Assembly (NCBI RefSeq): GCF_000159955.1
Contig: NZ_GG695974.1
Coordinates: 237,735-283,656 of the forward strand
Reading direction: 5' to 3'
Source of the DNA: Paenibacillus sp. oral taxon 786 str. D14
GTDB lineage: Bacteria; Bacillota; Bacilli; Paenibacillales; Paenibacillaceae
Length of the DNA: 45,922 nt
The notes under the pieces are model-generated. The model had not been told where the DNA came from. It did not search any database and saw only the letters and a program-made list of their open reading frames with translations. Both the position numbers and the translations under genes were made by a program. Every line of letters begins with the position of its first letter. Position 1 is the first letter of the stretch. Positions 15-45,922 of this stretch are shown piece by piece.

Positions 15-2321
15 TTATCCGACATCGGCCGAGTCCGAAATCGGTGGATTGCTGGATTCCACCTGGGAGTACAGTTTGCGGTACTGGCCCGGAGTTAAAC
101 CGGTTTCCTTCTTAAACTTACGGATGAAGTTAGGCGTGTCGAGGTAGCCGACCCGCTGAATAATGTCCTTCAGTGGATCGTTGGTGGACGTCAGATCGTT
201 CATCACCGCCATCATCCGTTTTTGCCAGATGTATTGAACGAAATTGATTCCCATCTGATCTTTGAAGGAGCGGCTGAAATGGGACACCGAAATCGAATAT
301 TTGCAGGAGATTGCTTCCAGACTTAACGAGTGATCCATATAATTGCTGTCGATGTAGGCGATAATTCGGTCCATCAGGGAATGCTCTTCCTTGCGTTCGT
401 TATGCAGCGCCAACTCGCAGATCCGCGAAGCAAGGCCAAGGAAATGGCGCTCCAGCTCCTGCAGGGAATTAAACGCATCGGAACTTGGGATTTCGTAGGT
501 CCAATCGCGAATATCCATCTCCATTCCCGTTCGCAGAATTGTATTCAAGATGTCAAAGCTAATGCAGCGCTTCATCTCGACGGATAGCTCCGGATTTTGC
601 AACACCTTCATCGATTCGCCGATCGTTTGGGCGGCCACTTCGTAGCTGCCTTGCTTTAAGCTTTGGGACAGCTTCAGCAACTCGTTCTTAGGCACCCAGG
701 ACGTTTCTCCCGGCGCATGGGACAGCTTCTCGAAGAAGGTGATGCTGCCATGCCCGGTAAACATCCGCGATTCAAACGCCGAGCAAGCCTCAATAAACGA
801 TTGGTTCAGTTGATCAGGATCGCTGTAATAAGTACCTACACCGATAACCGGGTCGATCCGGAACTGCTCCAGCAGATTGTCGTGGATGCGGTGGACGATC
901 CGGCGGAACTGGTCGGGTCCGGACCAGGAGTCGACCTTGTCAAAGCCAACGATCAGAGCGATTTGTCCGGGTTTAGGCAGCTCCACGCTGTAAAGGCACG
1001 CGCCATATTCAGGAATTTCCGCCGCGGCCAGCCGCCCGATCATCGCCTGCCAATCGTGGGTGTTCAGCCGGCTCTTCGCCGCTTCATCCCGGCCGATTAC
1101 CATGGCGAAATAATGCGCTTTGTTCAGGTTGATCTCCAGCGAGCTTAACAGCTCTGGCATCAGGCTGCGGGCGTTTCCGTATTTCAGCAACATCAATAGA
1201 AAATGATTGCGTGCATACGGCTCCTGCAGATCGGCGCGCGAGCTGTATTCCTGCAGCGCCGTACGGATGCGGTCCAGCTCGTTGCCGGTTTTGTGCGGTT
1301 TGGCAGCCAGTACGCCGGGCTTCGATTTGGAATCGGCAAACTTGACGAGGTCAAGAATCGGATGAAGCTGACGCCGCGCCAAGATCAGAGCCGCCAAGGT
1401 TCCGACGACGGTCAGCACAGCCAGCAGCAGAATCATTAGGCTGCGCAGATGCATCACGCTGTCAAGGAACTGCGAGCTGGGCATCAAGGTGACGTATTCC
1501 CAGCCGTTGGTCTCTGACTTGACCGAAACCACGGAATGCGATACCCCGCCTATCTCGATGCTGTGGATTCCTGTTGAAAGCGCAACCAATTGTTGTAAGT
1601 CCGATCCCTGAAGCGATTGTTCTTGATTGTTCTTGGAAGCCATGACACGACCGTGGTTATCGAAAATATAAGAAGATCCTTCATAGTTGCCAAGAATTGT
1701 ATCGATCAGTCGGGTCAATTCCGATTTTGGGATCAAGTACATTAATGTCCCGTGCGGGTTCGGGTTGTTCGGTGTAATCGGAACGAGATAAGCCAAGACC
1801 GAATGCTGTATCGTTCCGTTCTGGTTCAGCATCTCGGTGGAGTGAATGACAGGAAACTTGACGGAATTCAGTTCCTCAACCAGTGTAGAGCCTTCCCAGT
1901 TCAGAAAATGATAACGTTCGTGAAACACGTCCAGACTTGTCATCCCGGCGGTGGAATAAATCCTCTCATCGCCATGGAAGTAAAGGAACATTTCCCCGAT
2001 GATCGGGCTGGTCGCCTTGTAATTTTTGAGCGCATTGATCGCCTCTAAGCTGTAATACGGATCATGCACGCGATAACGGGCCAGTTGATCGTCATAAGCA
2101 ACCCGCGAAGCGATATCGCTGAGCTGCTTAACATGGCTGTCCACGATCGTCTTGGCCTGCGTTAACTGGTTCAAATGGGATTGTTCAATTTCGGAGCGGA
2201 GATTGCGGACCGCGCTGTTATAGATGAAGACCGATAACAATGCAAGTGGAACCAGTAGCATGAACAAGTAAGACCAGGTGTATTTTTGAAAAAGCTTAGA
2301 CTTAAAGTAATTCAGCTTCAC
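15..2321 (-). CDS. Membrane-anchored AraC-family transcriptional regulator
   Basis: A 768-residue one-component sensor regulator. Residues about 17-37 form a first membrane helix, then comes a roughly 250-residue extracytoplasmic sensor region, a second helix at about 293-316, a cytoplasmic linker, and a C-terminal pair of AraC helix-turn-helix motifs at about 651-751 ending in the typical GLTPGQYRKLY signature. This architecture is common in Paenibacillus next to Lpl-type sugar importers, where such proteins sense sugar outside the cell and activate the importer. The gene is divergent from the importer at 2680, which is its likely target (inference). The start is GTG at 2321, preceded by GAGGGGG about 10 bases upstream. 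The ligand cannot be read from the sequence. Confidence 0.93.
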   Translation of the reverse strand: MKLNYFKSKLFQKYTWSYLFMLLVPLALLSVFIYNSAVRNLRSEIEQSHLNQLTQAKTIVDSHVKQLSDIASRVAYDDQLARYRVHDPYYSLEAINALKNYKATSPIIGEMFLYFHGDERIYSTAGMTSLDVFHERYHFLNWEGSTLVEELNSVKFPVIHSTEMLNQNGTIQHSVLAYLVPITPNNPNPHGTLMYLIPKSELTRLIDTILGNYEGSSYIFDNHGRVMASKNNQEQSLQGSDLQQLVALSTGIHSIEIGGVSHSVVSVKSETNGWEYVTLMPSSQFLDSVMHLRSLMILLLAVLTVVGTLAALILARRQLHPILDLVKFADSKSKPGVLAAKPHKTGNELDRIRTALQEYSSRADLQEPYARNHFLLMLLKYGNARSLMPELLSSLEINLNKAHYFAMVIGRDEAAKSRLNTHDWQAMIGRLAAAEIPEYGACLYSVELPKPGQIALIVGFDKVDSWSGPDQFRRIVHRIHDNLLEQFRIDPVIGVGTYYSDPDQLNQSFIEACSAFESRMFTGHGSITFFEKLSHAPGETSWVPKNELLKLSQSLKQGSYEVAAQTIGESMKVLQNPELSVEMKRCISFDILNTILRTGMEMDIRDWTYEIPSSDAFNSLQELERHFLGLASRICELALHNERKEEHSLMDRIIAYIDSNYMDHSLSLEAISCKYSISVSHFSRSFKDQMGINFVQYIWQKRMMAVMNDLTSTNDPLKDIIQRVGYLDTPNFIRKFKKETGLTPGQYRKLYSQVESSNPPISDSADVG

Positions 2322-7831: not shown

Positions 7832-8014
7832 TAACGGACCTGAAAGACCTTATTTGCTGGAAAAGATGTCAATCCACAATGTAACGGACTGGAGAGCCGT
7901 TATCCGCTTGGAATGGGCTGAATTGATGGTCCAAACCGCCAAATAAGGTCGACTGGGTCCGTTAGATGCTGATAACTGGGATTTTCATCGAAATAACGGC
8001 GCTGAGGTCCGTTA
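7832..8014. repeat. Four-arm TAACGGA intergenic element, copy A
   Basis: Four related arms of about 22-25 bases: two on the plus strand (7832-7856, 7882-7903) and two inverted (7940-7964, 7993-8014). Each begins TAACGGAC when read on its own strand and ends in CTTATTT or CGTTAT. Arm 1 best matches inverted arm 3 (shared GACCTTATTTG) and arm 2 best matches inverted arm 4 (shared GCCGTTAT), which is an interleaved arrangement. The element fills most of the 277-bp gap after the fucosidase and ends 20 bases before the next start codon, so if transcribed with the operon it sits in that gene's leader. A second copy lies at 16653-16836. Confidence 0.75.
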
Positions 8015-8034
8015 GCGTAAGGAGGGAGAAAACG

Positions 8035-9084
8035 ATGGTGAATTACAGCGAGGTGCCTGAACCTTCAATCGAATTTGCACCCAAAACCTATATCTGCAAG
8101 CGGGCCGCCGGGCCGCTTGTCCTGGACGGGCGGATCGACAAGCCGTTCTGGGATGCCGCGGCATGGACCGACGACTTCGTGGATATCGAAGGCGATGTGC
8201 GGCCCAAGCCAAGCAAACGGACGCGGGCGAAAATGCTGTGGGATGATGAATACTTCTACGTGGCGGCCGAAATGGAGGAGGACGAAATTTGGGCGACGCT
8301 GACGGAGCGGGATTCGGTGATTTTCCATGACAACGACTTTGAAATCTTTATCGATCCAGATGGCGACAGCCACCTATATTATGAATTTGAAATCAACGCG
8401 CTGAATACGGTATGGGATTTGCTGTTAGTCAAGCCATACCGGGACGGCGGACCGCCGGTGAATGGCTGGGATATTAATGGGTTGCGCACGGCGGTAGATA
8501 TCGATGGGAAGTTAAACGATCCGACTGCAAAAAATCGACGGTGGAGCGTGGAGGTGGCCCTCCCGTGGGCCGCGCTGCGCGAATGCGCGCCGGAGGGGCG
8601 TCCGCCGCTGCCGGGCGAGTTCTGGCGGGTGAATTTTTCCCGGGTAGAATGGCGTGTGGAGGTGCAAGACGGCCGCTACGTCAAGCAAATCAATCCTGAG
8701 ACCGGGAAGCCTTATCCCGAGGACAACTGGGTATGGTCCCCGCAAGGAATCATCAACATGCATTATCCCGAGCTGTGGGGTTATGTAGTCTTTGCGGACG
8801 AGGGAGCCGATGCGGGCGGCGGATCCGCCGGTTTCCCGCTGCCGCAGGACGAATATATCAAATGGGAGCTGCGCCGACTGTATTATCGCCAGCGGAACTA
8901 TTATGCCCGTCATGGCCGATTTACGGCGGAGCTTACGGAGCTCGTCAGCGCGGAAGAAAGGGATTCGCTACGCATTCATCCGACGGTCGAGGCCGCGAGA
9001 AGAAGATTTGAGATTTCCGCGCCAGCTTCGGACGGCAAGGGAATCTATTATATCCGGGAAGACGGAAAACTGTGGAAGGAGTGA
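8035..9084 (+). CDS. Carbohydrate-binding family 9-like (DOMON-fold) protein
   Basis: A 349-residue protein with an N-terminal CBM9-like/DOMON beta-sandwich. Recognisable segments are LDGRIDKPFWDAAAWTDDF near residue 28, KMLWDDEYFYVAAEMEEDEIWA, HDNDFEIFIDPDGDSHLYYEFEINA and WSVEVALPWAAL. Homologous modules bind sugar chain ends, but this stand-alone type has no proven activity that I know of. There is no signal peptide, so it is probably cytoplasmic, which is odd for a binding module. ATG 8035 follows GGAGGGAGAAAACG; an upstream in-frame reading from 7966 runs through the four-arm repeat and lacks a ribosome-binding site. It precedes the transglutaminase-fold gene by only 6 bp, suggesting joint translation. 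Confidence 0.87.
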   Translation: MVNYSEVPEPSIEFAPKTYICKRAAGPLVLDGRIDKPFWDAAAWTDDFVDIEGDVRPKPSKRTRAKMLWDDEYFYVAAEMEEDEIWATLTERDSVIFHDNDFEIFIDPDGDSHLYYEFEINALNTVWDLLLVKPYRDGGPPVNGWDINGLRTAVDIDGKLNDPTAKNRRWSVEVALPWAALRECAPEGRPPLPGEFWRVNFSRVEWRVEVQDGRYVKQINPETGKPYPEDNWVWSPQGIINMHYPELWGYVVFADEGADAGGGSAGFPLPQDEYIKWELRRLYYRQRNYYARHGRFTAELTELVSAEERDSLRIHPTVEAARRRFEISAPASDGKGIYYIREDGKLWKE

Positions 9085-9090
9085 GCGTTG

Positions 9091-11718
9091 ATGAGCGTGG
9101 AGACGCCGGTGTTTTCGTTAAGTGAACAGGAGCTGGAGCAGATTGAACGCAAGTTTACGGACATCCGAAAGCTGGCACAGGGCCGGGAGAAGGAATTGTT
9201 TGACGTTTTTGACGGCCCTTTAACTGCCGAAGAGGCGTGGGCTTTAAAATTTCTATATGTGCATATGCCGCTAAATGATCTGGCCGATTATGACGGCACG
9301 TTTTTCTTGACCCATGTTCGTCAGGCGCTTGCCATCCGTAAGCAGGTACCTTGGGGCGCCCGGGTGCCGGACTACCTGTTCTTGCATTTTGTGCTGCCGG
9401 CCAGGGTGAACACCGAGAACCTCGAGGATTTCCGTGAGGTCATTTATGCGGAGTTGGGGCCGCGGACGGCGGGCTTATCGATGGCGGAGGCGATTCTCGA
9501 GGCGAATTACTGGTGCCATGAAAAAGCCACCTACATCGGCAGCGACTTGCGCACGCTGTCGCCGATCGGTATGATTCGCAACGCGCGCGGGCGCTGCGGC
9601 GAGGAGTCCACGCTGGCGGTTGCGGCGCTGCGCAGCATCGGCATTCCGGCGCGGCAGTGCTACACGCCGCGTTGGGCGCACTGCGACGATAATCACGCGT
9701 GGGTCGAGGCTTGGGCTGACGGCAAGTGGCATTATATCGGCGCTTGCGAACCGGAGGCCCGCCTAGACCAGGGGTGGTTCAGCGGTCCGGCACGACGGGC
9801 AATGCTGGTGCATACCCGCGTCCCGGCGACCTATTCCGGGCCGGAGGAGATTACCGTCAAGGGCGGCCCGTATGCGGAGCTGAACCTGCTGGCGAATTAC
9901 GCGCCGACCCGGACGATCGCCGTGGAGGTGCGGGAGGCGGACGGCACGCCGGCGGCTGGGGCAAAGGTGCAGTTCCAGCTGTACAACTATGCCGAGCTCT
10001 TCCCGCTGGCCGAGCTGATCACGGATGAGCGGGGCGAAGTCCGGTTCACGACCGGTTACGGCGATCTGATCGTTCGGGCCGTGCGGAACGGGGCTTGGGG
10101 GCAGCGGAAGATCCGCATCGCCGATGGCGACCGGTTCGAGATCGTGCTAAGCGGAGCGGTGGCGGAGCAGCCGGCTGGAAGCGAGAACTTCGAGATGGTG
10201 CCTCCGCCGGAGCTGGAGGGTCCGGAATCTGAGCCGCTCCCTGCGGAGCAGTTACAGCGGCATGAAGAACGGGTGGCCGAAGGGGCTGCATTGCGCCGTG
10301 CTTACGAGGAGACGTTCTTAACGGAGGAGGATGCCAAGCAACTTGCTGCCCAGCTTGGGCTGCCGGCAGACCGGGTATGGAAAGTGCTTGAGCCTGCCCG
10401 CGGCAACAGCCGGGAAATCGCCGCTTTCCTGGAGGAGCGCGTCCCGGAACATGGCGAATGGCCGCTGCTTCTGCTCGAAAGCTTGCGGGAGAAAGATTTG
10501 ACCGATACGATGCGCGAGACGCTGGACGACCACTTGACCGGATCGTTGCCATGGAAGGATTCGTACAACCGGGAGCTGTTCGTGACGTACGTGATGTGCC
10601 CGCGTGTGTGGTTTGAGATGATCACCCCTTACCGGAAGGCGCTTCAGAATCAATTTACCGAAGCGGAGATCAAATCTTATCAAGCCGATCCTTCCCGGAT
10701 TGCTGAGTTCCTGAATGAAGGCTGGAAAGTGCATGAGGGACCGGGGAACCTGCGCGGCAAAGCAGGACCCCTGGGCACATTCCAGCTGCGGATTGCGGAC
10801 CAAGGAGCGCTGGACATTCTGTTCGTCGCGTTATGCCGGAGTCTCGGCATTCCGGCAAGGCTGCATCCAAGCGAGCTGAAGCCGCAGTATTATGCGGCTG
10901 GTACTTGGGTGGATGCGGCAATCGGAAGCGTACGAGAAGGACAGGCGGAAGCCGAGGGCCGCGCCGGCCAATTGCTGCTTCGACGCGAAGCGAATGGCGG
11001 AACCGACGCACCAAACGCCTCTTATATGGAGAACTTCACGATCGCCCGGCTGGAAAATGGGTTCTATAAAACGCTGCTGTACCCGCACGGCAAAACCGAT
11101 GTGTACGATACGGCGTTTGATGTTGAGCCGGGGGATTACCGGATCACATCGGGCGTACGGCTGAAGGACGGTACCGTGCTGGGACGGTTCACGTACTTCC
11201 GGGTGGTGGAGCAAGAGCAGACCGAGGTTACGCTGACCTTTCCAGCTCCATCACGGCATATCCCGGTGTACGGGACACCTGATCCCAAAACGCCGCTATG
11301 GCAAGCAGACGGGACGGAGACAACGCTGGGGGCGTTATGCCAAGGGCCACGCGGCGCGATGATCGCTTGGCTGGTGCCGGAACGGGAGCCGTCGAAGCAT
11401 CTGCTGCGTGAAACAGGAGAGCTCGCGGAAACGTTTGACGTCTTGGGGATCCCGGTTATTTTTGTCCTTGGGCGTGAAGAGGACTCACCGGCTCCCGTCG
11501 TCCCTGAAGCCGCTGCCCGCTTGCCGAAAGGCGCGGTATTCGCCGGCGATCCGGGTCACATTGCGCTACGCCGGTTCACGGACGCCGGCATCCAGTTAGG
11601 GAGCGGAGGGTTCCCGCACCTATTTGTCCTGGACCATGAAGGGAACGTCCGTTACGTGCAATCGGGTTATAAGCCGGGAAGCGGCAAGGAAGCACTCCAG
11701 ATTTTAAGCGATTTGTAG
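9091..11718 (+). CDS. Large transglutaminase-fold protein with degenerate second domain
   Basis: An 875-residue multidomain protein without signal peptide. Residues about 20-240 form a transglutaminase/protease-like domain with an intact triad candidate: Cys169 in RGRCGEES, His202 in DDNHAWVEAW and an acidic residue near Glu220. Residues about 275-355 look like an Ig-like carboxypeptidase-regulatory fold. Around 560-620 a second transglutaminase-like segment (FVALCRSLGIPARL) aligns with the first, but the catalytic Cys position is Gln and the His position is Gly, so it is probably inactive. The C-terminus (about 725-875) resembles a redoxin fold without a CXXC motif. The superfamily includes peptide N-glycanases, proteases and transamidases; the reaction here is unknown. 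ATG 9091 has AAGGAG 9 bases upstream; TTG 9088 is the alternative. Confidence 0.85.
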   Translation: MSVETPVFSLSEQELEQIERKFTDIRKLAQGREKELFDVFDGPLTAEEAWALKFLYVHMPLNDLADYDGTFFLTHVRQALAIRKQVPWGARVPDYLFLHFVLPARVNTENLEDFREVIYAELGPRTAGLSMAEAILEANYWCHEKATYIGSDLRTLSPIGMIRNARGRCGEESTLAVAALRSIGIPARQCYTPRWAHCDDNHAWVEAWADGKWHYIGACEPEARLDQGWFSGPARRAMLVHTRVPATYSGPEEITVKGGPYAELNLLANYAPTRTIAVEVREADGTPAAGAKVQFQLYNYAELFPLAELITDERGEVRFTTGYGDLIVRAVRNGAWGQRKIRIADGDRFEIVLSGAVAEQPAGSENFEMVPPPELEGPESEPLPAEQLQRHEERVAEGAALRRAYEETFLTEEDAKQLAAQLGLPADRVWKVLEPARGNSREIAAFLEERVPEHGEWPLLLLESLREKDLTDTMRETLDDHLTGSLPWKDSYNRELFVTYVMCPRVWFEMITPYRKALQNQFTEAEIKSYQADPSRIAEFLNEGWKVHEGPGNLRGKAGPLGTFQLRIADQGALDILFVALCRSLGIPARLHPSELKPQYYAAGTWVDAAIGSVREGQAEAEGRAGQLLLRREANGGTDAPNASYMENFTIARLENGFYKTLLYPHGKTDVYDTAFDVEPGDYRITSGVRLKDGTVLGRFTYFRVVEQEQTEVTLTFPAPSRHIPVYGTPDPKTPLWQADGTETTLGALCQGPRGAMIAWLVPEREPSKHLLRETGELAETFDVLGIPVIFVLGREEDSPAPVVPEAAARLPKGAVFAGDPGHIALRRFTDAGIQLGSGGFPHLFVLDHEGNVRYVQSGYKPGSGKEALQILSDL

Positions 11719-11780
11719 CTGTGTACGACGACAACTCAGGTTTGCGCGAGTAGCCGCGCAAGCAAAGGGAGGAGCACCAA

Positions 11781-12818
11781 ATGAGCCGGAACTATGTGGT
11801 GGCGGGATACGTTAGCGACCGCCACCTCCCTGAACTGACGAAGGAAGAGCTGAAGAAGCTGACCCATATCAATATCGCCTTTGGCCATGTGCGAGAGGAC
11901 CGGATTCAAACGGGACATTTGCAAAACTTGGGCCTGCTGCCCGAACTCAAACGGGAGAATCCTGACTTGACGGTCCTGCTGTCCGTAGGCGGCTGGAGCG
12001 CCGGCGGCTTCTCGGAGGCCGCTTCAACGGAAGCCGGGCGGCAGGCAATGGCCGAGTCGGCGGTCCGCGCCGTCACGGAATATGCGCTTGACGGGGTCGA
12101 CCTGGATTGGGAGTATCCCTGCTATGCCGAGGCGGGGATTGCTGCCAGCCCGGACGACAAGGCGAATTTCACGCTGCTGCTGCGGACGATGAGAGAGGCG
12201 CTGGATCGGCAAGGCGAACGGGATGGCCGCCATTATGGGCTGACAATCGCCGCTGGGGCGGACCAATATTACATTGACGGTACGGAGATGGCTGAGGTCC
12301 AGCGTTACCTTGATTTCGTCCAGCTGATGACGTACGACATGCGCGGCGGCTTCCAGACGTTGACCGGGCATCACACCAACCTGTACACAGGAACCGGGGA
12401 CCTGTTCCGCATCAGCGTTGACGCCTCGGTGAACCTGTATATTCAGGCCGGGGTGCCCAAGGAGAAAATCGTCATCGGCGCAGCGTTTTATTCACGCATG
12501 TGGAAGGACGTACCAAACGTGAATCGCGGGCTGTATCAAATGTCTCCCGGCCCGGGTGGGTACGGCCCGGACTTTACTGCATTAGCCGCCGAGTATATCG
12601 ACCGCAACGGATTTGTCCGTTACTGGGATGAGGAGGCGAAAGCGCCGTATCTGTTTGACGGCCAAACGTTTATCTCCTATGACGATGAAGCATCGATCCG
12701 CTGTAAATGCGATTACGTCAAGGCGCAAGAACTGGCCGGGGTGATGTTCTGGGAGTATGGCTGCGATCGGACGCACCGGCTGCTTGATGCACTGTACCAA
12801 GGGTTAAAATCACCGTAA
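11781..12818 (+). CDS. Glycoside hydrolase family 18 (chitinase-type) protein
   Basis: A 345-residue single-domain GH18 TIM barrel. It carries the catalytic DxxDxDxE motif as DGVDLDWE (Asp104, Asp107, Asp109, with Glu111 the proton donor), the SVGGW segment near residue 72 and the QLMTYDMRG segment near 185 typical of chitinases. There is no signal peptide and no chitin-binding module, so it should act inside the cell on short imported GlcNAc-containing chains rather than on chitin. GH18 also contains endo-beta-N-acetylglucosaminidases, which would suit the neighbouring fucosidase and transglutaminase-fold genes, but the motif does not decide between them. AAGGGAGGAG lies 7 bases before ATG 11781. 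It is the last gene of the operon, followed by a terminator. Confidence 0.92.
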   Translation: MSRNYVVAGYVSDRHLPELTKEELKKLTHINIAFGHVREDRIQTGHLQNLGLLPELKRENPDLTVLLSVGGWSAGGFSEAASTEAGRQAMAESAVRAVTEYALDGVDLDWEYPCYAEAGIAASPDDKANFTLLLRTMREALDRQGERDGRHYGLTIAAGADQYYIDGTEMAEVQRYLDFVQLMTYDMRGGFQTLTGHHTNLYTGTGDLFRISVDASVNLYIQAGVPKEKIVIGAAFYSRMWKDVPNVNRGLYQMSPGPGGYGPDFTALAAEYIDRNGFVRYWDEEAKAPYLFDGQTFISYDDEASIRCKCDYVKAQELAGVMFWEYGCDRTHRLLDALYQGLKSP

Positions 12819-12844
12819 GGAACAATCTTAAACTTTCCTAGCCC

Positions 12845-12910
12845 ACAAAAAGCCTCATGCTTCGCCAACCTTGAACCAAAGGGATAGCGAGCAGCATGGG
12901 GCTTTTTGTT
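12845..12910 (+). terminator. Hairpin terminator after the GH18 gene
   Basis: The outer stem ACAAAAAGCC pairs with GGCTTTTTGT (perfect 10 bp) and the inner stem CATGCT with AGCATG. The loop is long, and the T-rich 3' arm TTTTTGTT serves as the tail. It ends the operon that starts at 2680. Being A-rich on the other side, it could also terminate transcription arriving from the opposite-strand gene at 13007. Confidence 0.75.
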
Positions 12911-13006
12911 ATGACATCAATCGTTCTAACTTTGCCGGGCCCGTCATAGATATAAATAGGGCTGTTTTTACCCGCATCTGCGGTACAACCTTAGGCCTGA
13001 GGATTT

Positions 13007-13234
13007 TCACAGTTTCCTAGATTCTTTGCTGCCGGAGGCTCCTGAGGTCTGCCGATCTTCGCCCAGAATATCATCCAGCCGCTGCACTTCTTCGGAGAGA
13101 GCCTGCAAGGAAGCTTCGATGTTGCCCAATTTATCGCCAACGGTTTGCAGCACATATTTGATCAGGATGAAGCAAAGTGTGACGGGAAAGCCAACATTAG
13201 CAACCAACGACACAATATCTGCAACCTGCATCAT
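13007..13234 (-). CDS. yvrJ: YvrJ-family small membrane protein
   Basis: A 75-residue protein with one hydrophobic segment (about 8-28, IVSLVANVGFPVTLCFILIKYVL), then a short charged coiled-coil-like stretch and a polar tail. The VGFPV segment is typical of the YvrJ family, which resembles BhlA/UviB holin-like peptides. In Bacillus subtilis yvrJ lies beside the sigma-O genes and is one of few known sigma-O targets; here it is divergent from SigO-like and RsoA-like genes, which supports the call strongly. AAGGAGG is 5 bases before ATG 13234 and 8 before ATG 13231, so either codon could be the start. The function of YvrJ is not established. Confidence 0.82.
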   Translation of the reverse strand: MMQVADIVSLVANVGFPVTLCFILIKYVLQTVGDKLGNIEASLQALSEEVQRLDDILGEDRQTSGASGSKESRKL

Positions 13235-13270
13235 GGGTACCTCCTTGAACTTTTTTCGGGCCCTTCACTA

Positions 13271-13302
13271 TATGGGGAAAAAAGTTTGTCATGGTACAAC
13301 CA
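13271..13302 (-). promoter_or_regulatory. Candidate sigma-O-type promoter for the YvrJ-like gene
   Basis: Read on the minus strand it has TGGTTGTA (13302-13295), a 17-base spacer and CCCCATATA just after a T run, about 37-40 bases before the start codon. The same composite (TGGTTGTA, about 18 bases, TTTCCC then C/T, ATA) occurs on the plus strand at 13346-13379, facing the sigma genes. The blocks do not resemble TTGACA/TATAAT. I do not remember the published sigma-O consensus well enough to match it. Confidence 0.6.
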
Positions 13303-13345
13303 AAATATAGAAAAAATGTTATAATCATTACTACTTATATAATTA

Positions 13346-13379
13346 TGGTTGTATAACCCCCTTAAAAATTTCCCTATAC
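13346..13379 (+). promoter_or_regulatory. Candidate autoregulated sigma-O-type promoter for the split sigma operon
   Basis: TGGTTGTA at 13346-13353, then 15 bases, then TTTCCCTATAC at 13369-13379, about 33 bases ahead of the TTG start at 13412. It mirrors the minus-strand motif at 13271-13302 in block sequence and spacing (one base difference). The matched pair in a divergent region suggests the encoded sigma factor drives both directions. Confidence 0.6.
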
Positions 13380-13411
13380 ATAGAAGATGAAAATGAAAGG
13401 GGGAGGTAGTT

Positions 13412-13756
13412 TTGAAGGAACAACATACCGTGTACGAGCAATATCGGAAAGAAGTTTATCGTATTGCATGGAGGGTTCAATACAGAGCGAGAGTCGTCAG
13501 AAAACGGGAATGTTCATTCAATGGAGTCGAGCCGGCCGTAACCTGCTTCACCTCATCTTCTGATAATAAAATTGTTGTAAGACAGCTGATCAATGCGCTT
13601 CCTTCTACGACGGGAAAAACGATCATCTCCAAAATCTATCTACAGGACAAAACGGAGGGGGAAGTCGCCCGCGAGTTGAATATGAGTCAGCAAGGGGTGA
13701 ACAAATGGAAACGAAAGATGATCAAAGAGTTGTCCCGGATGATGAAGAGTTCCTGA
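13412..13756 (+). CDS. sigO: SigO-like sigma factor subunit (region 4)
   Basis: A 114-residue protein whose C-terminal half is a sigma-70 region 4 helix-turn-helix: IISKIYLQDKTEGEVARELNMSQQGVNKWKRKM at about residues 69-104. That domain recognises the -35 element. There is no region 2; the downstream overlapping gene appears to provide it. This matches the two-subunit SigO (YvrI) / RsoA (YvrHa) sigma factor of Bacillus subtilis, which controls oxalate decarboxylase. The start is TTG 13412 with AAAGGGGGAGG 5 bases upstream, and no other plausible start lies nearby. No oxdC or yvrL homologue is seen here, so the main targets must lie elsewhere. The assignment rests on domain plus neighbours. 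Confidence 0.78.
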   Translation: MKEQHTVYEQYRKEVYRIAWRVQYRARVVRKRECSFNGVEPAVTCFTSSSDNKIVVRQLINALPSTTGKTIISKIYLQDKTEGEVARELNMSQQGVNKWKRKMIKELSRMMKSS

Positions 13757-13929
13757 GTTTGCTTCAGAAAGCAAGGGATAACGATCCCGATGCGACGTTA
13801 AAGTTAATCGAGCTGTTTAAAGGCGATATTGTGCATATAAGCAAGTATATTCATATGTCCGAAGAGGACGCCGTTTCCGACATCATTCTCGAGTTTCTGG
13901 AGATGATTAAGAGGCGGGAGGAGAAGTAA
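13705..13929 (+). CDS. rsoA: RsoA-like co-sigma subunit (region 2)
   Basis: A 74-residue acidic protein. The segment EEFLSLLQKARDNDPDATLKLIELFKGDIVHISKYI resembles the start of sigma region 2 and the helix-turn-helix domain of RsoA/YvrHa, the partner that contacts core RNA polymerase and helps open the promoter for SigO. ATG 13705 lies inside the SigO-like gene, overlapping its last 52 bases in another frame, with AGGGGTG 6 bases upstream. This overlap implies coupled translation and matched amounts of the two subunits. A strong terminator follows after about 10 bases. The sequence is short, so the call leans on the neighbouring SigO-like and YvrJ-like genes. Confidence 0.78.
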   Translation: METKDDQRVVPDDEEFLSLLQKARDNDPDATLKLIELFKGDIVHISKYIHMSEEDAVSDIILEFLEMIKRREEK

Positions 13930-13938
13930 TTGACATGC

Positions 13939-13981
13939 AAAAAAAGTCGGTCAGGAAGTTCATTCCTGATCGACTTTTTTA
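13939..13981 (+). terminator. Rho-independent terminator of the split sigma operon
   Basis: AAAAAAGTCGGTCAGGAA pairs with TTCCTGATCGACTTTTTT apart from one wobble, with a 4-6 base loop and a T run. It closes the SigO/RsoA-like operon. Confidence 0.9.
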
Positions 13982-14084
13982 AATTTTTTGATGAATCCGG
14001 TTGTAAATGCGGTTTTTGATTTTCCCTTAGAGATGAGTGCGGTAAAGGGGCTTTATCAGATAAAAGCGTTGGGAGAAGGAAGCG

Positions 14085-14678
14085 TTAAACGGATAGAGTC
14101 TCGGTCTCATGGAAAAGCTCCTGGAACGCTCGCCACGCGTAATCCCGATCTGTCAGCTTGTTTTGCACCGCAGCTTGCCAAGCGGCATGGTCGGTGGTTA
14201 AAGACGAAAACTGATCTACGCCGTACCAGTCTAGCAGTTCTTCACGCGTTACACGGTAGGCCGCCGAACCTTCGTTAAAAATCACGGCCTCCAGGTTATC
14301 GATATAAGCAAAAGCGGCCGTGGCGCTGTATAAATACGCTCGATCGCGATCGACATCCGCCATCGGCACCGAAGAATCCAGATTCACTTGCACGGTGAAC
14401 ACGTCCGGATCAAGGGCAAAAGAACGAATCGGTCCCAGGGGGAGCGAAAGGAAGAGGCCCGAAACTTTAGAAGCATTGCCCATGTAAGGTGTCGCAAAAG
14501 AGGCCGTACGGGTGATGTCATGGGTCAGCGGATTGTTTTGCGCTTCGTTGTAGAGCGCCCCCTGCTTATCCTGGCGCGGTAGCGCCACGCCTTCCACCAC
14601 GCCCAAGCAGACGAATCCGGCAAGGAGCAGGGCGAAAATTCCGATGTTCCAACGTTTGAAGGTTTGTCTCGTCGTCAT
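14085..14678 (-). CDS. DUF4825-like membrane-anchored protein
   Basis: A 197-residue protein with an N-terminal membrane anchor (about residues 9-28, IGIFALLLAGFVCLGVVEGV) and an extracytoplasmic domain. Segments such as TPYMGNASKVSGLFLSLPLG and SATAAFAYIDNLEAVIFNEG resemble the DUF4825 family; no biochemical function is known to me. The start is set at ATG 14678 because it overlaps the stop codon of the upstream gene as ATGA, implying translational coupling; TTG 14687 would be 3 codons longer. It is the last gene of the PadR operon. It may be a signalling or envelope component, but that is a guess. Confidence 0.75.
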   Translation of the reverse strand: MTTRQTFKRWNIGIFALLLAGFVCLGVVEGVALPRQDKQGALYNEAQNNPLTHDITRTASFATPYMGNASKVSGLFLSLPLGPIRSFALDPDVFTVQVNLDSSVPMADVDRDRAYLYSATAAFAYIDNLEAVIFNEGSAAYRVTREELLDWYGVDQFSSLTTDHAAWQAAVQNKLTDRDYAWRAFQELFHETETLSV

Positions 14679-15352
14679 GCTTCCCAATCACCTACTTCAT
14701 GTTTTGTCAGCAACGAAGCGCTCAGCTGGAACGCCAGCGGAATCCCAATCGTGAGAAACGGCTTGGCGTATTGGATGCCCAGTAGCGCAAACTGATAAGG
14801 ACCGCCGATCTTCACTTGATAGCCAAACCAGATATTGCTCCCGAACCGGAGGGCCGTAATCGCGAGCAGGGTGACAAGAATGAACAGCCCCCACAGCAGC
14901 CACACGATCCGGCTTCGCCGCCGGGCCGCCGCGATATGTCGCGGAGCCGTTACTTCAAGCGCTTGGCCGCGCCACGTTAAATGCAGCACGAGATAAAAGA
15001 GGCCAAGAACTAGGACGAAGCCCAGAAGGAAGAAACTTAACGGCGTGCGTTCGATCAAACGTAATGGAATAGTGAAGATCCACAGAATGATGGCTAAAAA
15101 CAGCATCTTTTGCATCCATTCCAAACGATAGCGGTTTACATAGATCAGCGGGTGTTCGTCGATCAGCCCGTCGATGCGGGTGAGGCTGGATGTTGCCGTC
15201 CGGACGGCTTGTTCGTAATCCATTCCGCCAGCCATGAGATCGGCGACTTTGGCTTCCAGATTACCGATGATTTCCTCTTTCATCTCACGGTTTCGTCCGG
15301 TTGCCGGGTAGCCGGCAAATAAACGATCCACGTGGTTTTGCAACGAATTCAT
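14675..15352 (-). CDS. Permease-prefix-domain-1 membrane protein
   Basis: A 225-residue protein. The N-terminal 80 residues form a charged helical domain (MNSLQNHVDRLFAGYPATGRN onward, with MKEEIIGNLEAKVADLMAGGMDYEQAVRTA) of the permease-prefix/DUF1700-like type that typically follows a PadR regulator. Then come about four membrane helices. ATG 15352 overlaps the PadR stop as ATGA and has an AGGAGG site within the PadR gene; a longer reading to 15502 lies inside PadR in another frame and is not credible. Such PadR-coupled membrane proteins are thought to respond to envelope stress, but their mechanism is unknown. Confidence 0.8.
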   Translation of the reverse strand: MNSLQNHVDRLFAGYPATGRNREMKEEIIGNLEAKVADLMAGGMDYEQAVRTATSSLTRIDGLIDEHPLIYVNRYRLEWMQKMLFLAIILWIFTIPLRLIERTPLSFFLLGFVLVLGLFYLVLHLTWRGQALEVTAPRHIAAARRRSRIVWLLWGLFILVTLLAITALRFGSNIWFGYQVKIGGPYQFALLGIQYAKPFLTIGIPLAFQLSASLLTKHEVGDWEA

Positions 15353-15708
15353 GATGGGGATCCCTCCTGTTTCTCGATCAGAACGTCGATGATCTCGCGG
15401 GAAAATTTCCATGCCGCCAAATTGGCTTTGTAAACCTCGGCTCCCGCAGGGGTGACATGGTAATATTTGCGCCGCCCGCCCAAACTGCGATCTTCCCCCC
15501 AATAGGATTCGATCAGCTTCTGGGCCTCCAATCGCTTTAAGCTGGTGTAGAGCGACGGCTCTTTCAATTCGTAACGTCCTTGGCTAATGGAGGAGATGGA
15601 TTTCATGATCTCATACCCGTAGTTATCTCCCTCCTCCAGCAGCACCCGAAGAATAATCGTATCGATGTGGCCGCGGATCAAATCCCGGCTGATGGCGCTG
15701 TCGTTCAC
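15349..15708 (-). CDS. PadR-family transcriptional regulator
   Basis: A 119-residue winged-helix repressor. The PadR N-terminal domain is clear: DLIRGHIDTIILRVLLEEGDNYGYEIMKSI, then YELKEPSLYTSLKRLEAQKLIESYWGED and GGRRKYYHVTPAGAEVY. Start GTG 15708 is preferred because AAGAGGTG lies 6 bases upstream; a longer in-frame reading to 15741 would run through the likely operator. It is first in a three-gene operon with ATGA overlaps. Short PadR proteins usually repress their own operon and release DNA on effector binding; the effector is unknown. Confidence 0.92.
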   Translation of the reverse strand: MNDSAISRDLIRGHIDTIILRVLLEEGDNYGYEIMKSISSISQGRYELKEPSLYTSLKRLEAQKLIESYWGEDRSLGGRRKYYHVTPAGAEVYKANLAAWKFSREIIDVLIEKQEGSPS

Positions 15709-15730
15709 TTTGTTCACCTCTTTTGAAACA

Positions 15731-15746
15731 ATGTAATACATATTAC
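15731..15746. promoter_or_regulatory. Candidate PadR operator
   Basis: Two overlapping palindromes lie 23-38 bases upstream of the PadR start: ATGTAATACAT (15731-15741) and GTAATACATATTAC (15733-15746, perfect). Known PadR sites often have ATGT and ACAT half-sites. The position fits autoregulation. No binding is proven. Confidence 0.5.
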
Positions 15747-15933
15747 TATGTGTGTCAATGTAGTTGATGCTTGGTTACTTTGTCACTAGATCGCTAAGTC
15801 AGTAAGTTACTAGATCACTAGATCCTATGGTCGCTTGTTATTGGCCGAAGAAGAAGTCTCATCGATTAGTTGTTGCGGCCCCCCTGGGAACTTGTTGTAA
15901 AATAGATAGACTGAAGAAGAGGAGGGGAGTCTT

Positions 15934-16642
15934 ATGGATGGTAACCATCAACCTGCTTCTATGCCGCTCCATCATGCGATTCATCCGGGGGAACGGATGA
16001 CCTTCGGCTCGTACCCCCATTCAGCCGATGGGACGGTACAGCCGATGGGACGGTACAGCCGATCGTATGGCGGATTCTCCAAAATTCAGGCAACGAGTTG
16101 TTTCTGTTGAGTGAAGAGATTTTGGACTGCAAGCTTTTATCACGGGAAAAGCGCGGATGTTTCGTGGCGGGATGCCGTAGACATCATCTGGCGCGACTGC
16201 GATTTGCGGCAGTGGTTAAACGAGGAGTTTTTCGCTGCTGCCTTTAGCCCGGAAGAGCAAGCGTTGATCGAGCCGGCTTATTGCACAGATAACGGGGAAG
16301 GCTGCCCCGATACGGAGGACAACGTGTTTCTGCTGAGTGTAGCGGAGGTGAAGGCATTCACCGCAAGCCTTGGCAAGGACTGGCTGACCGCCGTAGGGAC
16401 GGATTATGCGAAATTGAAGAAGCCCGACGGCTGCAGCCTTTATGTCTATGACAAGGGCGAGGAAGTCAATTATGTGCTGCGAAACGGTCAGAAGATGGGC
16501 TGTTCCTGGTGGTGGCTGCGCACGCAGGGCAATTTACCTTCGCGCGCCCATTTTATCGGTACGGGATGCAGCATCCGCAGCTATCAACGTCAGTCTGGCA
16601 AGGGATGGCGTGCGGCCAGCAATTAAGTTGAGTTATGTTTAA
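15934..16642 (+). pseudogene. DUF6273-type protein gene broken by three frameshifts
   Basis: AGGAGGGGAG precedes ATG 15934. Three frames must be joined to rebuild a DUF6273-like domain: ERMTFGSYPHSADGTVQP, then IVWRILQNSGNELFLLSEEILDC, then GKSADVSWRDA...RQWLNEEFFAAAFSPEEQALI...CSWWWLRTQG, then GVRPAIKLSYV. The first break is an exact 17-bp tandem duplication (CAGCCGATGGGACGGTA, twice near 16022-16055). The second is one extra T in a run at 16135-16138. The third is a shift near 16590. The first two add up to 18 bases, so reading frame is restored, but a TGA at 16108-16110 lies between them. The function of intact family members is unknown. Sequencing error could mimic the single-base breaks but not the 17-bp duplication. 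Confidence 0.8.
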
Positions 16643-16652
16643 TGAATGGATT

Positions 16653-16836
16653 TAACGGAACGTACAGCCCTTATTTCGCATGGAAGCAGCTGGTCGGAAC
16701 TTTTAACGGAATCAGATGACGTTATTTGGCTCGAATAGGCTAGAGCGAGGTTGATTTACGTCCAATAACGGCCTTACGTTCCGTTAGAACGGGAAATCTC
16801 GCGGGAAATGGACTTTAGCGTCATCTGGTTCCGTTA
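16653..16836. repeat. Four-arm TAACGGA intergenic element, copy B
   Basis: Two direct arms (16653-16677, 16704-16728) and two inverted arms (16763-16786, 16813-16836), each beginning TAACGGAA on its own strand. Arm 1 best matches inverted arm 3 (AACGTA plus GCC and TTATT), and arm 2 best matches inverted arm 4 (CAGATGACG). Arm starts are spaced 51, 59 and 50 bases, against 50, 58 and 53 in copy A at 7832-8014; total length is 184 against 183. The DNA between arms is not conserved between copies. It lies between the pseudogene and the LacI gene. I see no ORF or transposon ends. Confidence 0.75.
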
Positions 16837-26312: not shown

Positions 26313-26393
26313 GGGCTATCGCTCCTCTTTGAAATCCTTAATGCTTACTCGTGTGCTAGACTAACGGCTCAATTTTCAATAAAGGTAAAAAAT

Positions 26394-26581
26394 GGCCTTA
26401 TTTTGCAAGGTTTGAGCGGATACGGAGAAATAAGGGACTTTTTTGTCCTTATTTTGAATGGGAAGCGTGCGAAACGGGCCAAACTTGCGTGTTTCCGGAA
26501 AATAAGGCCCAAATTTCCCCTTATTTCGGCTCAACGGGCTGATTTGGAGCAAATAGAGGAAAAAAAGTCCGCTATTTGCTC
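26394..26581. repeat. AATAAGG-type intergenic inverted-repeat element, copy C
   Basis: A dense set of arms containing CCTTATTT or AAATAAGG. GGCCTTATTTT (26394-26404) pairs with AAAATAAGGCC (26499-26509); GAAATAAGGG (26427-26436) pairs with CCCTTATTTC (26518-26527); GGACTTTTTT (26435-26444) pairs with AAAAAAGTCC (26561-26570). A perfect local stem GAGCAAATAG / CTATTTGCTC spans 26547-26581. The first two pairs interleave. The core AATAAGGGACTTTT recurs at 45790-45807. It lies between the isomerase and dehydrogenase 3 genes, with no ORF of note. Confidence 0.7.
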
Positions 26582-26600
26582 GGAAGGCAGCCTGTGGGCA

Positions 26601-26760
26601 GGTCACCCGCCGCTAGAGTGCGTGCCGGCCACGTCCCATGGCGCTTCTGTGCCGCAGAGTGCGTGCCAGCCACGTCCCATGACGCTCCTGTGCCGCTTTA
26701 ATGCGCACCCGTCACGCCCATCGCGCTCCCGCACCGCTTTAATGCGTACCCGACACGTCC
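26601..26760. repeat. 41-bp tandem repeat overlapping the end of dehydrogenase 3
   Basis: Three full units of exactly 41 bases (26638-26678, 26679-26719, 26720-26760) and a partial one (26601-26637). Each shares the blocks CGCTCCNGTGCCGC-like, GCGNRCCNGNCACGTCC-like on the plus strand. The unit nearest the gene contains the last six codons and the TAA stop of dehydrogenase 3, so each further unit is a drifting copy of the gene's 3' end placed downstream of it. The two units nearest the gene are most alike. Confidence 0.75.
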
Positions 26761-45732: not shown

Positions 45733-45756
45733 CGTTGCCTATTTAGCGGTAAAAAT

Positions 45757-45889
45757 GTCCCTTATTTTCCACTCCACATTGGAAATCGAGGAAATAAGGG
45801 ACTTTTATGGTGCTATTTTGCAGAGAGAGCGACGAAATGGCGGAATTTCGACCAGCATCCGGAGAATAACGCCCTTTTTGGTCGTTATT
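45757..45889. repeat. AATAAGG-type intergenic inverted-repeat element, copy D
   Basis: GTCCCTTATTTTCC (45757-45770) pairs with GGAAATAAGGGAC (45790-45802) apart from one extra T, and a second hairpin pairs AATAACG (45865-45871) with CGTTATT (45883-45889). The core AATAAGGGACTTTT is shared with copy C at 26430-26443. The element may continue past the window end, where ATAACG appears again. No gene is seen after 45689. Confidence 0.65.
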
Positions 45890-45922
45890 TTCTGATATCT
45901 AGCCGATGAAGCCGCAATAACG

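Follow-up and report, generated by a model that had tools for sequence, protein, structure and literature searches.

Repetitive extragenic palindromic (REP) sequences, bacterial interspersed mosaic elements (BIMEs) and REPINs are palindromic words dispersed between genes in tens of copies per genome, as described in the available text of PMC2817692 and PMC1525189. A REP linked to a REP-associated tyrosine transposase (RAYT) is a palindrome of 20–40 bp with a GTAG or CGTC tag, according to the available part of PMC3733652. The corresponding part of PMC2817692 describes a resident gene flanked by its own element, joint variation of protein and word, and a correlated presence of the two, and IS110-type insertions into REP elements are known from passages of PMC1525189. 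Here we describe an intergenic element of about 183 bp with four arms, which is present twice in a stretch of 45,922 nucleotides from Paenibacillus sp. oral taxon 786 str. D14 (contig NZ_GG695974.1, positions 237,735 to 283,656; hereafter the window), and a protein of ~218 residues that recurs beside such elements in other genomes. The element probably, though by no means certainly, forms the DNA part of a resident system resembling REP-RAYT, in which the protein is non-homologous and nuclease-like.

Like the REP family, the Paenibacillus element is a dispersed intergenic palindromic word with tens of copies per genome, its cognate gene has an element of its own alongside, protein and word co-vary, the presence of one correlates with that of the other, and both systems are targets of IS110-type insertion. 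RAYTs are HUH (Y1) transposases among the relatives of IS200/IS605, and they cut and rejoin repeat DNA in single-stranded form. Unlike RAYTs, the protein gave no HUH (Y1_Tnp) match among the Pfam matches listed for eight of its sequences (E up to 1), and is predicted to combine a Vsr/EDxHD-like nuclease fold with a winged helix instead. The repeat unit also differs, having four arms in the order ++--, a fixed 50/76/50 spacing and 10.1-bp phasing, and neither a GTAG nor a CGTC tag was present at the ends of the arm consensus TAACGGAM...GACSTTATTTG (44 copies). Because of the missing HUH match, the four-site, helically spaced unit and the missing tags, we do not file the system as a member of REP-RAYT, although by analogy it appears to work like one.

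E. coli BIME-2 and strong gyrase sites also lie between genes, have a phased G/C content and are presumed to be wrapped; the G/C periodicity flanks a central cleavage site. Here the period is 10.1 and not 10.75 bp, the unit 183 and not 130 bp, and there is a word-specific protein partner. With the EDxHD homing endonucleases (I-Bth0305I) and the DUF559/Vsr group, the protein shares a nuclease fold, as judged from a comparison of models, and its conserved acidic and histidine residues may correspond to theirs; unlike them, it is free-standing, has a C-terminal winged helix and, wherever a repeat was detected, is paired with one of its own. Bacterial miniature inverted-repeat transposable elements (MITEs) are similarly short, non-coding, dispersed and quasi-palindromic, but the present element has no general terminal repeat or target duplication, a conserved internal geometry and a long retention in place. 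No report of such a Paenibacillus element or protein-repeat pair was found in the literature searched (open-licence PMC, top-ranked results).

Geometry and phasing of the four-arm elements

The initial annotation placed two copies at 7832-8014 and 16653-16836; both intervals were exact. Element 2 was read through its orthologue at locus L015 in the nearest genome compared (G001).

7832..8014, unstranded: four-arm element 1, word TAACGGAC; intergenic, previous stop codon 74 bp away, next start codon 20 bp away
7832..7856, plus strand: element 1 arm 1, word TAACGGA from 7832
7882..7906, plus strand: element 1 arm 2, word TAACGGA from 7882
7940..7964, minus strand: element 1 arm 3, word TCCGTTA from 7958
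7990..8014, minus strand: element 1 arm 4, word TCCGTTA from 8008
16653..16836, unstranded: four-arm element 2, word TAACGGAA; L015 identical over the element
16653..16677, plus strand: element 2 arm 1, word TAACGGA from 16653 (read as L015)
16704..16728, plus strand: element 2 arm 2, word TAACGGA from 16704 (read as L015)
16762..16786, minus strand: element 2 arm 3, word TCCGTTA from 16780 (read as L015)
16790..16809, plus strand: element 2 spacer motif CGGGAAAT..CGGGAAAT, which confers polarity on the subfamily
16812..16836, minus strand: element 2 arm 4, word TCCGTTA from 16830 (read as L015)

From word to word, the spacing is 50/76/50 in element 1 and 51/76/50 in element 2 (via L015). The window contains 13 occurrences of TAACGGA, of which 8 lie inside the two elements; 4.5 are expected, and 13 occurrences were reached in 0 of 100 shuffles. 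A sequence-only model built from a nine-copy alignment gave 145 rows in G001, both strands counted. The profile search of the fetched loci left 47 non-duplicate matches that scored 60 bits or more, from which 44 with four recognisable arms were kept: window element 1 and 43 copies from G001, L015 included. The three dropped were interrupted copies. The variable arm number and spacing that the initial annotation had named as a refutation were not seen in the copies examined, the low-scoring G001 rows being covered in part. The three copies with three arms in G001 are four-arm elements into which an IS110-type element has inserted. Two shorter fragments, L050 and L051, exist as well.

The spacing was 50/76/50 in 31 of the 44 copies, and the remaining 13 were off by 1 bp at one step. 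Among 132 distinct elements from 29 genomes and the window, found by a search restricted to nearby spacings, the outer steps were 50 bp in 223/264 cases and the middle step was 76 bp in 111/132. The spacer sequences are unrelated between most of the 44 copies. Such near-invariant spacing between unrelated spacers bears out the earlier view that constant geometry with drifting sequence reflects constraint. The second spacer carries a CGGGAAATnnCCGGGAAAT motif that gives the subfamily a direction and is weak or absent in a few copies, including element 1.

Within the spacers of 119 non-redundant 183-bp elements, the A/T content oscillates in phase with the arms, at a period of 10.0–10.2 bp (~10.1 bp). 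These peaks recurred in the subsets from G001 (23 elements), G098 and G090 together (12), G091 (only 3) and the rest (81). The power at 10.0–10.2 bp lay more than 50 standard deviations above within-spacer shuffles, compared with a z of 4 at 10.8 bp; secondary peaks, such as those at 8.5 and 12 bp, are taken to be side lobes from gapped sampling.

Two members of a sister family with palindromic arms are also present in the window, the second of which matches L049 of G001 (spacing there 51/72/51).

26377..26577, unstranded: sister-family element, palindromic arms of AAATAAGG..CCTTATTT type; arm starts 26377, 26428, 26500 and 26551, spacing 51/72/51
45741..45922, unstranded: second sister-family element, cut by the window end; arms at 45741, 45792, 45864 and 45915 (read by eye)

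Other members are L042, L043, L045, L046, L048, L049 and L379. An arm-pattern scan, following a palindrome scan that yielded few centres, gave a spacing of 51/72/51 in 7 of 8 members and 52/62/51 in one (window-end copy left out). By our own arithmetic, the arm centres of the TAACG family are ~50/62/50 apart, and repeats beside two paralogs of the protein described below are spaced 52/62/51 (L380) and 51/52/52 (L383). The middle gap clusters near 52, 62 and 72, in steps of one helical turn; the repeats of L382, at ~51/59/51 by the same arithmetic, fit whole-turn steps less well. Because of the ~10.1-bp A/T phasing and the one-turn steps of the middle gap, we favour a wrapped protein-DNA complex over RNA: as far as sequence can tell, these features suggest wrapped duplex DNA and are poorly explained by RNA. 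A DNA period below 10.5 bp favours left-handed wrapping. Directly downstream of the first sister-family element, at 26600-26760, imperfect tandem repeats with GAGTGCGTGCCRGCCACGTCCCATG... units were seen by eye.

The words of one element tend to be the same. The four arms agree at base 8 in 167 of 191 non-redundant elements, compared with 24 expected from shuffled columns (genome identity ignored), and in 41 of the 44 G001/window copies. At the element 1 locus, every arm has C at base 8 in the window and in G008, G033 and G014, and every arm has A in G011 and G023; inside the arms, the sequence remains largely specific to each arm. The word can thus change in concert within an element. At the element 2 locus, base 8 is A in all four arms in the window, C, C, T, C in G033 and a mixture in G023. 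The word uniformity and the spacing rules suggest that four identical sites are read together.

The initial annotation had further proposed that arm 1 pairs with arm 3 and arm 2 with arm 4, with matching changes in paired arms. The interleaved pairing is found in the two window copies but is not a property of the family: when within-element matching was compared with shuffles and contrasted across the 191 elements, 5.81 of 11 inner arm bases matched in the interleaved arrangement, 5.71 in the nested and 5.85 in the tandem one. Interleaved versus nested matching was 6.29 vs 5.60 in G001 (34 elements), 5.38 vs 4.73 in G090 (13) and 5.45 vs 6.14 in G091 (11). The matching changes are real but concern one word common to the four arms, not two separate pairs. 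The suggested pseudoknot-like RNA fares poorly, given that interleaving is not general, that the predicted fold is nested (1-4 plus 2-3) in 31/44 copies with a program that cannot output a pseudoknot, and that the phasing and the one-turn step fit duplex DNA. A cruciform, also suggested, may be a possible structure for the element.

The neighbouring protein and its putative recognition helix

Genes adjoining 256 elements were grouped, and a protein of ~218 residues recurred at 7 loci in 7 genomes (representative L208, from P. faecis). Three larger groups were set aside since they look like generally abundant families; we take them to be response-regulator/AraC-type and sensor proteins, ABC transporters, and Gfo/Idh-type oxidoreductases. 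L208 has 993 relatives at E up to 1e-5, and among the 120 listed the source names are transcriptional regulator or hypothetical protein. The structure model displays an N-terminal Vsr/EDxHD-like nuclease domain and a C-terminal winged helix, and the fold of the former is predicted to be that of DUF559/Vsr-EDxHD nucleases. Residues E59, E61, D64, D73, E86 and H93 are invariant in 8 protein sequences, D96 not in all, and the invariant nuclease-type residues hold across paralogs 26–67% identical to L208. By sequence, these acidic and histidine residues may correspond to the site motif of I-Bth0305I. The DUF559 profile gave weak matches in 5 of the 8 sequences (E up to 1, best 9.5e-6) and none for L208, which had no Pfam match at E up to 1; one of the 8 matches MTES_1575 (2e-4). 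No cognate gene was found in the window by tblastn with L208 as the single query (best E 0.22).

Adjacency was scored with a word-blind detector at 30 protein-gene loci and seven G001 paralogs (37 loci, or 36 distinct genes, L372 and L377 being one gene). A four-arm element lies within 500 bp of the gene at 23/37 loci, corresponding to 22/36 distinct genes, compared with 0/37 letter-shuffled loci. Anywhere in the stretch, an element was found at 26/37 gene loci versus 4/21 control loci of a LacI homologue. Where it adjoins the protein gene, the element occurs on either side, and in G098 and G090 the gene is flanked by elements on both sides. Among the seven G001 paralogs, six are accompanied by a four-arm element with a word particular to that paralog: TAACGCT (L377), TAACGGAC (L378, IS-cut), ATAGCGGTAAAAAT (L379), AATTAACGGTAAAAGC (L380), TGTAAAAGTGCAG (L382) and TATATGATTTTTCG (L383).

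The element is widespread in the order, in agreement with the earlier suggestion of a dispersed, REP-like element. The three-arm pattern TAACGGA-42..45-AACGGA-67..73-TCCGTTA was found in 59 of 146 genomes and 24 of 48 genera (reversed control 0), far more than chance would give, and a relaxed pattern, with only TAACG/CGTTA fixed but all four arms required, in 67/146 genomes and 26/48 genera (control 0). The relaxed pattern also revealed other words, namely TAACGAAT in G088 and G143 and TAACGGTC beside TAACGGAC in G096. Among the matches listed, the element was present in records named for many Paenibacillus species and for Cohnella, Fontibacillus, Saccharibacillus and Gorillibacterium. The four-arm pattern was also listed in records named Bacillus sp. 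Marseille-Q3570 (L231, L259) and Pontibacillus yanchengensis (L246), which suggests a wider distribution or transfer.

The protein is present in 110/146 genomes (E up to 1e-10), with up to 12 matches per genome. With the three-arm and relaxed matches pooled, 71 genomes have both protein and element, 1 the element only, 39 the protein only and 35 neither (Fisher 7e-12, phylogeny ignored). The corresponding numbers for the core subfamily are 62, 10, 12 and 62 (2e-18, phylogeny likewise ignored).

The word also corresponds to the winged helix. In 24 genes labelled with the word of a neighbouring element, three of these elements being more than 500 bp away (L356 and L373) or IS-cut (L378), we read the middle residue of the triple that follows HLxxS/T. 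This residue is R in 13/14 and H in 1/14 genes with GGA words, N in 4/4 with GGT, Q in 2/2 with GCT, Q in 2/3 and P in 1/3 with GAA, and R in the single gene with GGC. Unlabelled genes were excluded from the count; seven of them and two labelled ones were read afterwards, giving TAACGCTT arms for L369 (Q), TAACGAAT for L374 and L359 (Q), TAACGGAT for L367 (R), a TAACGGT-type word for L354 (H) and TAACGGCT/TAGCGGCT words for L358 (R), while no words were seen on the short contig of L370 (Q). On the protein tree, 6 word changes are needed, compared with a mean of 8.6 after shuffling, and a number as low was reached in 1 of 200 shuffles. Beside the cognate gene of L367, at 1244-1401, TAACGGA-type words stand in the reverse order, two inverted and then two direct.

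Retention, placement and mobility

Seven genomes were searched for the place of element 1. The element is present at the orthologous place in five (G008, G011, G014, G023 and G033) and absent from that place in G001, whereas the place itself was not found in G021. A recent insertion, as the comparison with G001 could have indicated, is disfavoured by its presence in the other five genomes, and loss in G001 is therefore the simplest reading. Element 2 lies between the same genes in G001, G011, G014, G021 and G033, and in G023 via a match to G033; it is also spanned by a G008 match. Across species, element 2 is 73–83% identical where BLAST reports the element alone, and the DNA immediately outside is mostly unalignable. 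Over 21 pairs, some from the same locus and all selected for an element in both members, so that the comparison is blind to loss, the mean identity was 0.82–0.86 for the arms, 0.62–0.71 for the spacers and centre and 0.53–0.54 for the outer 50 bp. In G014, the element 2 locus (L172) has the segment that separates arm 2 from arm 3 in the opposite orientation to the other species (identity 0.48 direct and 0.73 inverted), the sole clear case in the 21 pairs.

None of the 44 copies overlaps a gene as called by a simple codon model (0/44). They lie in 31 codirectional, 10 convergent and 3 divergent gaps. With the elements counted in, these overlapping loci hold 134 gaps of 150 bp or more, 83 of them codirectional, 33 convergent and 18 divergent, so that the avoidance of divergent gaps is modest. 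In the flanks of the 44 copies, little is conserved past the adjoining base or two, and there is no terminal repeat.

G131 has 13 near-identical copies, from 14 loci (L108-L121), and 12 of them lie within a ~300-bp unit with terminal inverted repeats (TIRs) GAGGCTGTCGATTCATTGTG and, at some sites, direct repeats of ~6 bp outside (both by eye). Among the genomes read this closely, G131 alone has these features. In L111 of G131, the right end of the unit is missing straight after arm 4. Near-identical copies with mostly unrelated flanks were also observed in G096. Tandem arrays of three four-arm elements were found in three species (L237:6068-6757, L269:1808-2516 and L208:2628-3641), with periods of ~254, 263 and 415 bp. 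Three G001 elements (L076:2200-3812, L077 and L038) carry an IS110-type insertion of ~1.6–1.7 kb where arm 2 begins on its left side, as judged from a flank that is identical in them; in L004, this end of the insertion adjoins arm 1. The copy in L076 carries Pfam PF02371 and PF01548. The IS110-type insertion into the words is target-specific.

Proposed mechanism and alternatives

In the system that we propose, ~183 bp of intergenic, A/T-phased and bendable DNA carries a word specific to the family (in the window TAACGGAC or TAACGGAA) four times, twice direct and then twice inverted, at spacings near whole helical turns. The cognate protein, encoded elsewhere beside its own copy of the element, would read the word by its C-terminal winged helix, and several protomers may sit on the four arms together, so that the DNA is wrapped up as a single compact particle. 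The putative N-terminal nuclease domain would then nick or cut the element, and this processing may give rise to new copies in other intergenic gaps, for the most part outside divergent ones. That binding leads on to copying is proposed because of the nuclease-like domain and the distribution of copies; a host benefit is conceivable. In a bolder form, which we find plausible without quite favouring it, these would be a class of genome-resident systems without a description in the papers searched, made up of paralogous Vsr-like nucleases with winged helices, each with a geometry-coded particle in which four identical words lie on one face of DNA that is wrapped left-handedly and phased as in a nucleosome. 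The middle spacing would change only by whole turns, and the protein would build, copy and maintain tens of such elements between genes.

Several observations weigh against the proposed system. The protein occurs without a detected element in 39 genomes (12 with the core subfamily), G094 has the element pattern without the protein, and the core subfamily is absent from 10 of the 72 genomes with an element, including four with at least 5 element matches. Both the co-occurrence and the helix counts ignore phylogeny, and some of the genes counted are near copies (L363/L364, L355/L360, L371/L372). Fourteen of the 37 gene loci had no strict match within 500 bp, 4/21 of the LacI-homologue controls had a match somewhere in their stretch (26/37 gene loci when counted likewise), and no element was found beside the G001 paralog L381. 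G001 has two forms of base 8 (A, C) but one TAACGGA-type paralog was found there, so that protein specificity alone is insufficient to account for word uniformity. Retention has an exception as well: between L023 and P. barengoltzii L096, the flanking genes are 94% identical and the place is kept, but the elements are 65% alike, with different words, and not recognisably the same. Finally, the G131 element is carried in a TIR-flanked unit, and another transposase may therefore move it.

Four other explanations were considered. If the protein were a global winged-helix transcription factor, the element would be its operator and the dispersed copies its regulated sites, which would agree with the winged helix of the structure model, with the name transcriptional regulator used by the sources and with the closeness of elements to genes. 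We regard this as unlikely, considering that divergent gaps hold just 3/44 elements (31 codirectional, 10 convergent), that the element may lie on either side of its own protein gene, and that nuclease-type residues are invariant across paralogs 26–67% identical to L208; moreover, a four-site layout of 183 bp is, to our knowledge, uncommon for an operator. A structured RNA, in which the transcribed element acts as a nested or interleaved fold (terminator or 3' untranslated region (UTR) stabiliser), is improbable. The folding z-score averages -5.2 over the 44 elements, with 41/44 below -2, and 31/44 lie between codirectional genes, but such z-scores arise from complementary arms alone, interleaved matching is not general, no Rfam model matched the window at the gathering score (0 matches), and the helical-turn spacer steps and helically phased A/T content stand against it.

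A wrapping site for gyrase (a topoisomerase) or a nucleoid protein of the BIME-2 kind, with phased DNA as the signal and the adjacent protein secondary, would account for the A/T phasing throughout the element and for its intergenic position (3/44 in divergent gaps, versus 18 of the 134 gaps of 150 bp or more in the same loci, elements included). The available text of PMC6379681 describes the gyrase motif of E. coli as a pattern of 130 bp with phasing, and states that BIME-2 is cut by gyrase. The period of that motif is 10.75 bp in the same text, as compared with 10.0–10.2 bp here and near-background power at 10.8 bp; because of this difference, and with the words and their match to a protein family left unexplained, we consider a gyrase site very unlikely. 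Ordinary MITEs, as leftover transposon ends that an unrelated transposase mobilises and that have no host function, could produce the ~300-bp TIR units of G131 (12 of 13 copies) with ~6-bp direct repeats at some sites, the near-identical copies in G096 and the tandem arrays. They are a most improbable general explanation, as the 44 G001/window copies have no such ends, arms and geometry are kept at orthologous places while spacers and flanks drift, and window element 1 is old and not a new insertion.

The proposed resident system is directly testable because the word matches the recognition helix, and with its strict helical spacing the element would provide a naturally occurring particle for the study of DNA wrapping over four sites. 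If the proposal is true, a large protein family (993 relatives), now labelled transcriptional regulator or hypothetical protein among the 120 listed, would have to be re-described, and the REP-RAYT arrangement, in which a resident protein keeps dispersed repeats, would have arisen a second time from unrelated parts.

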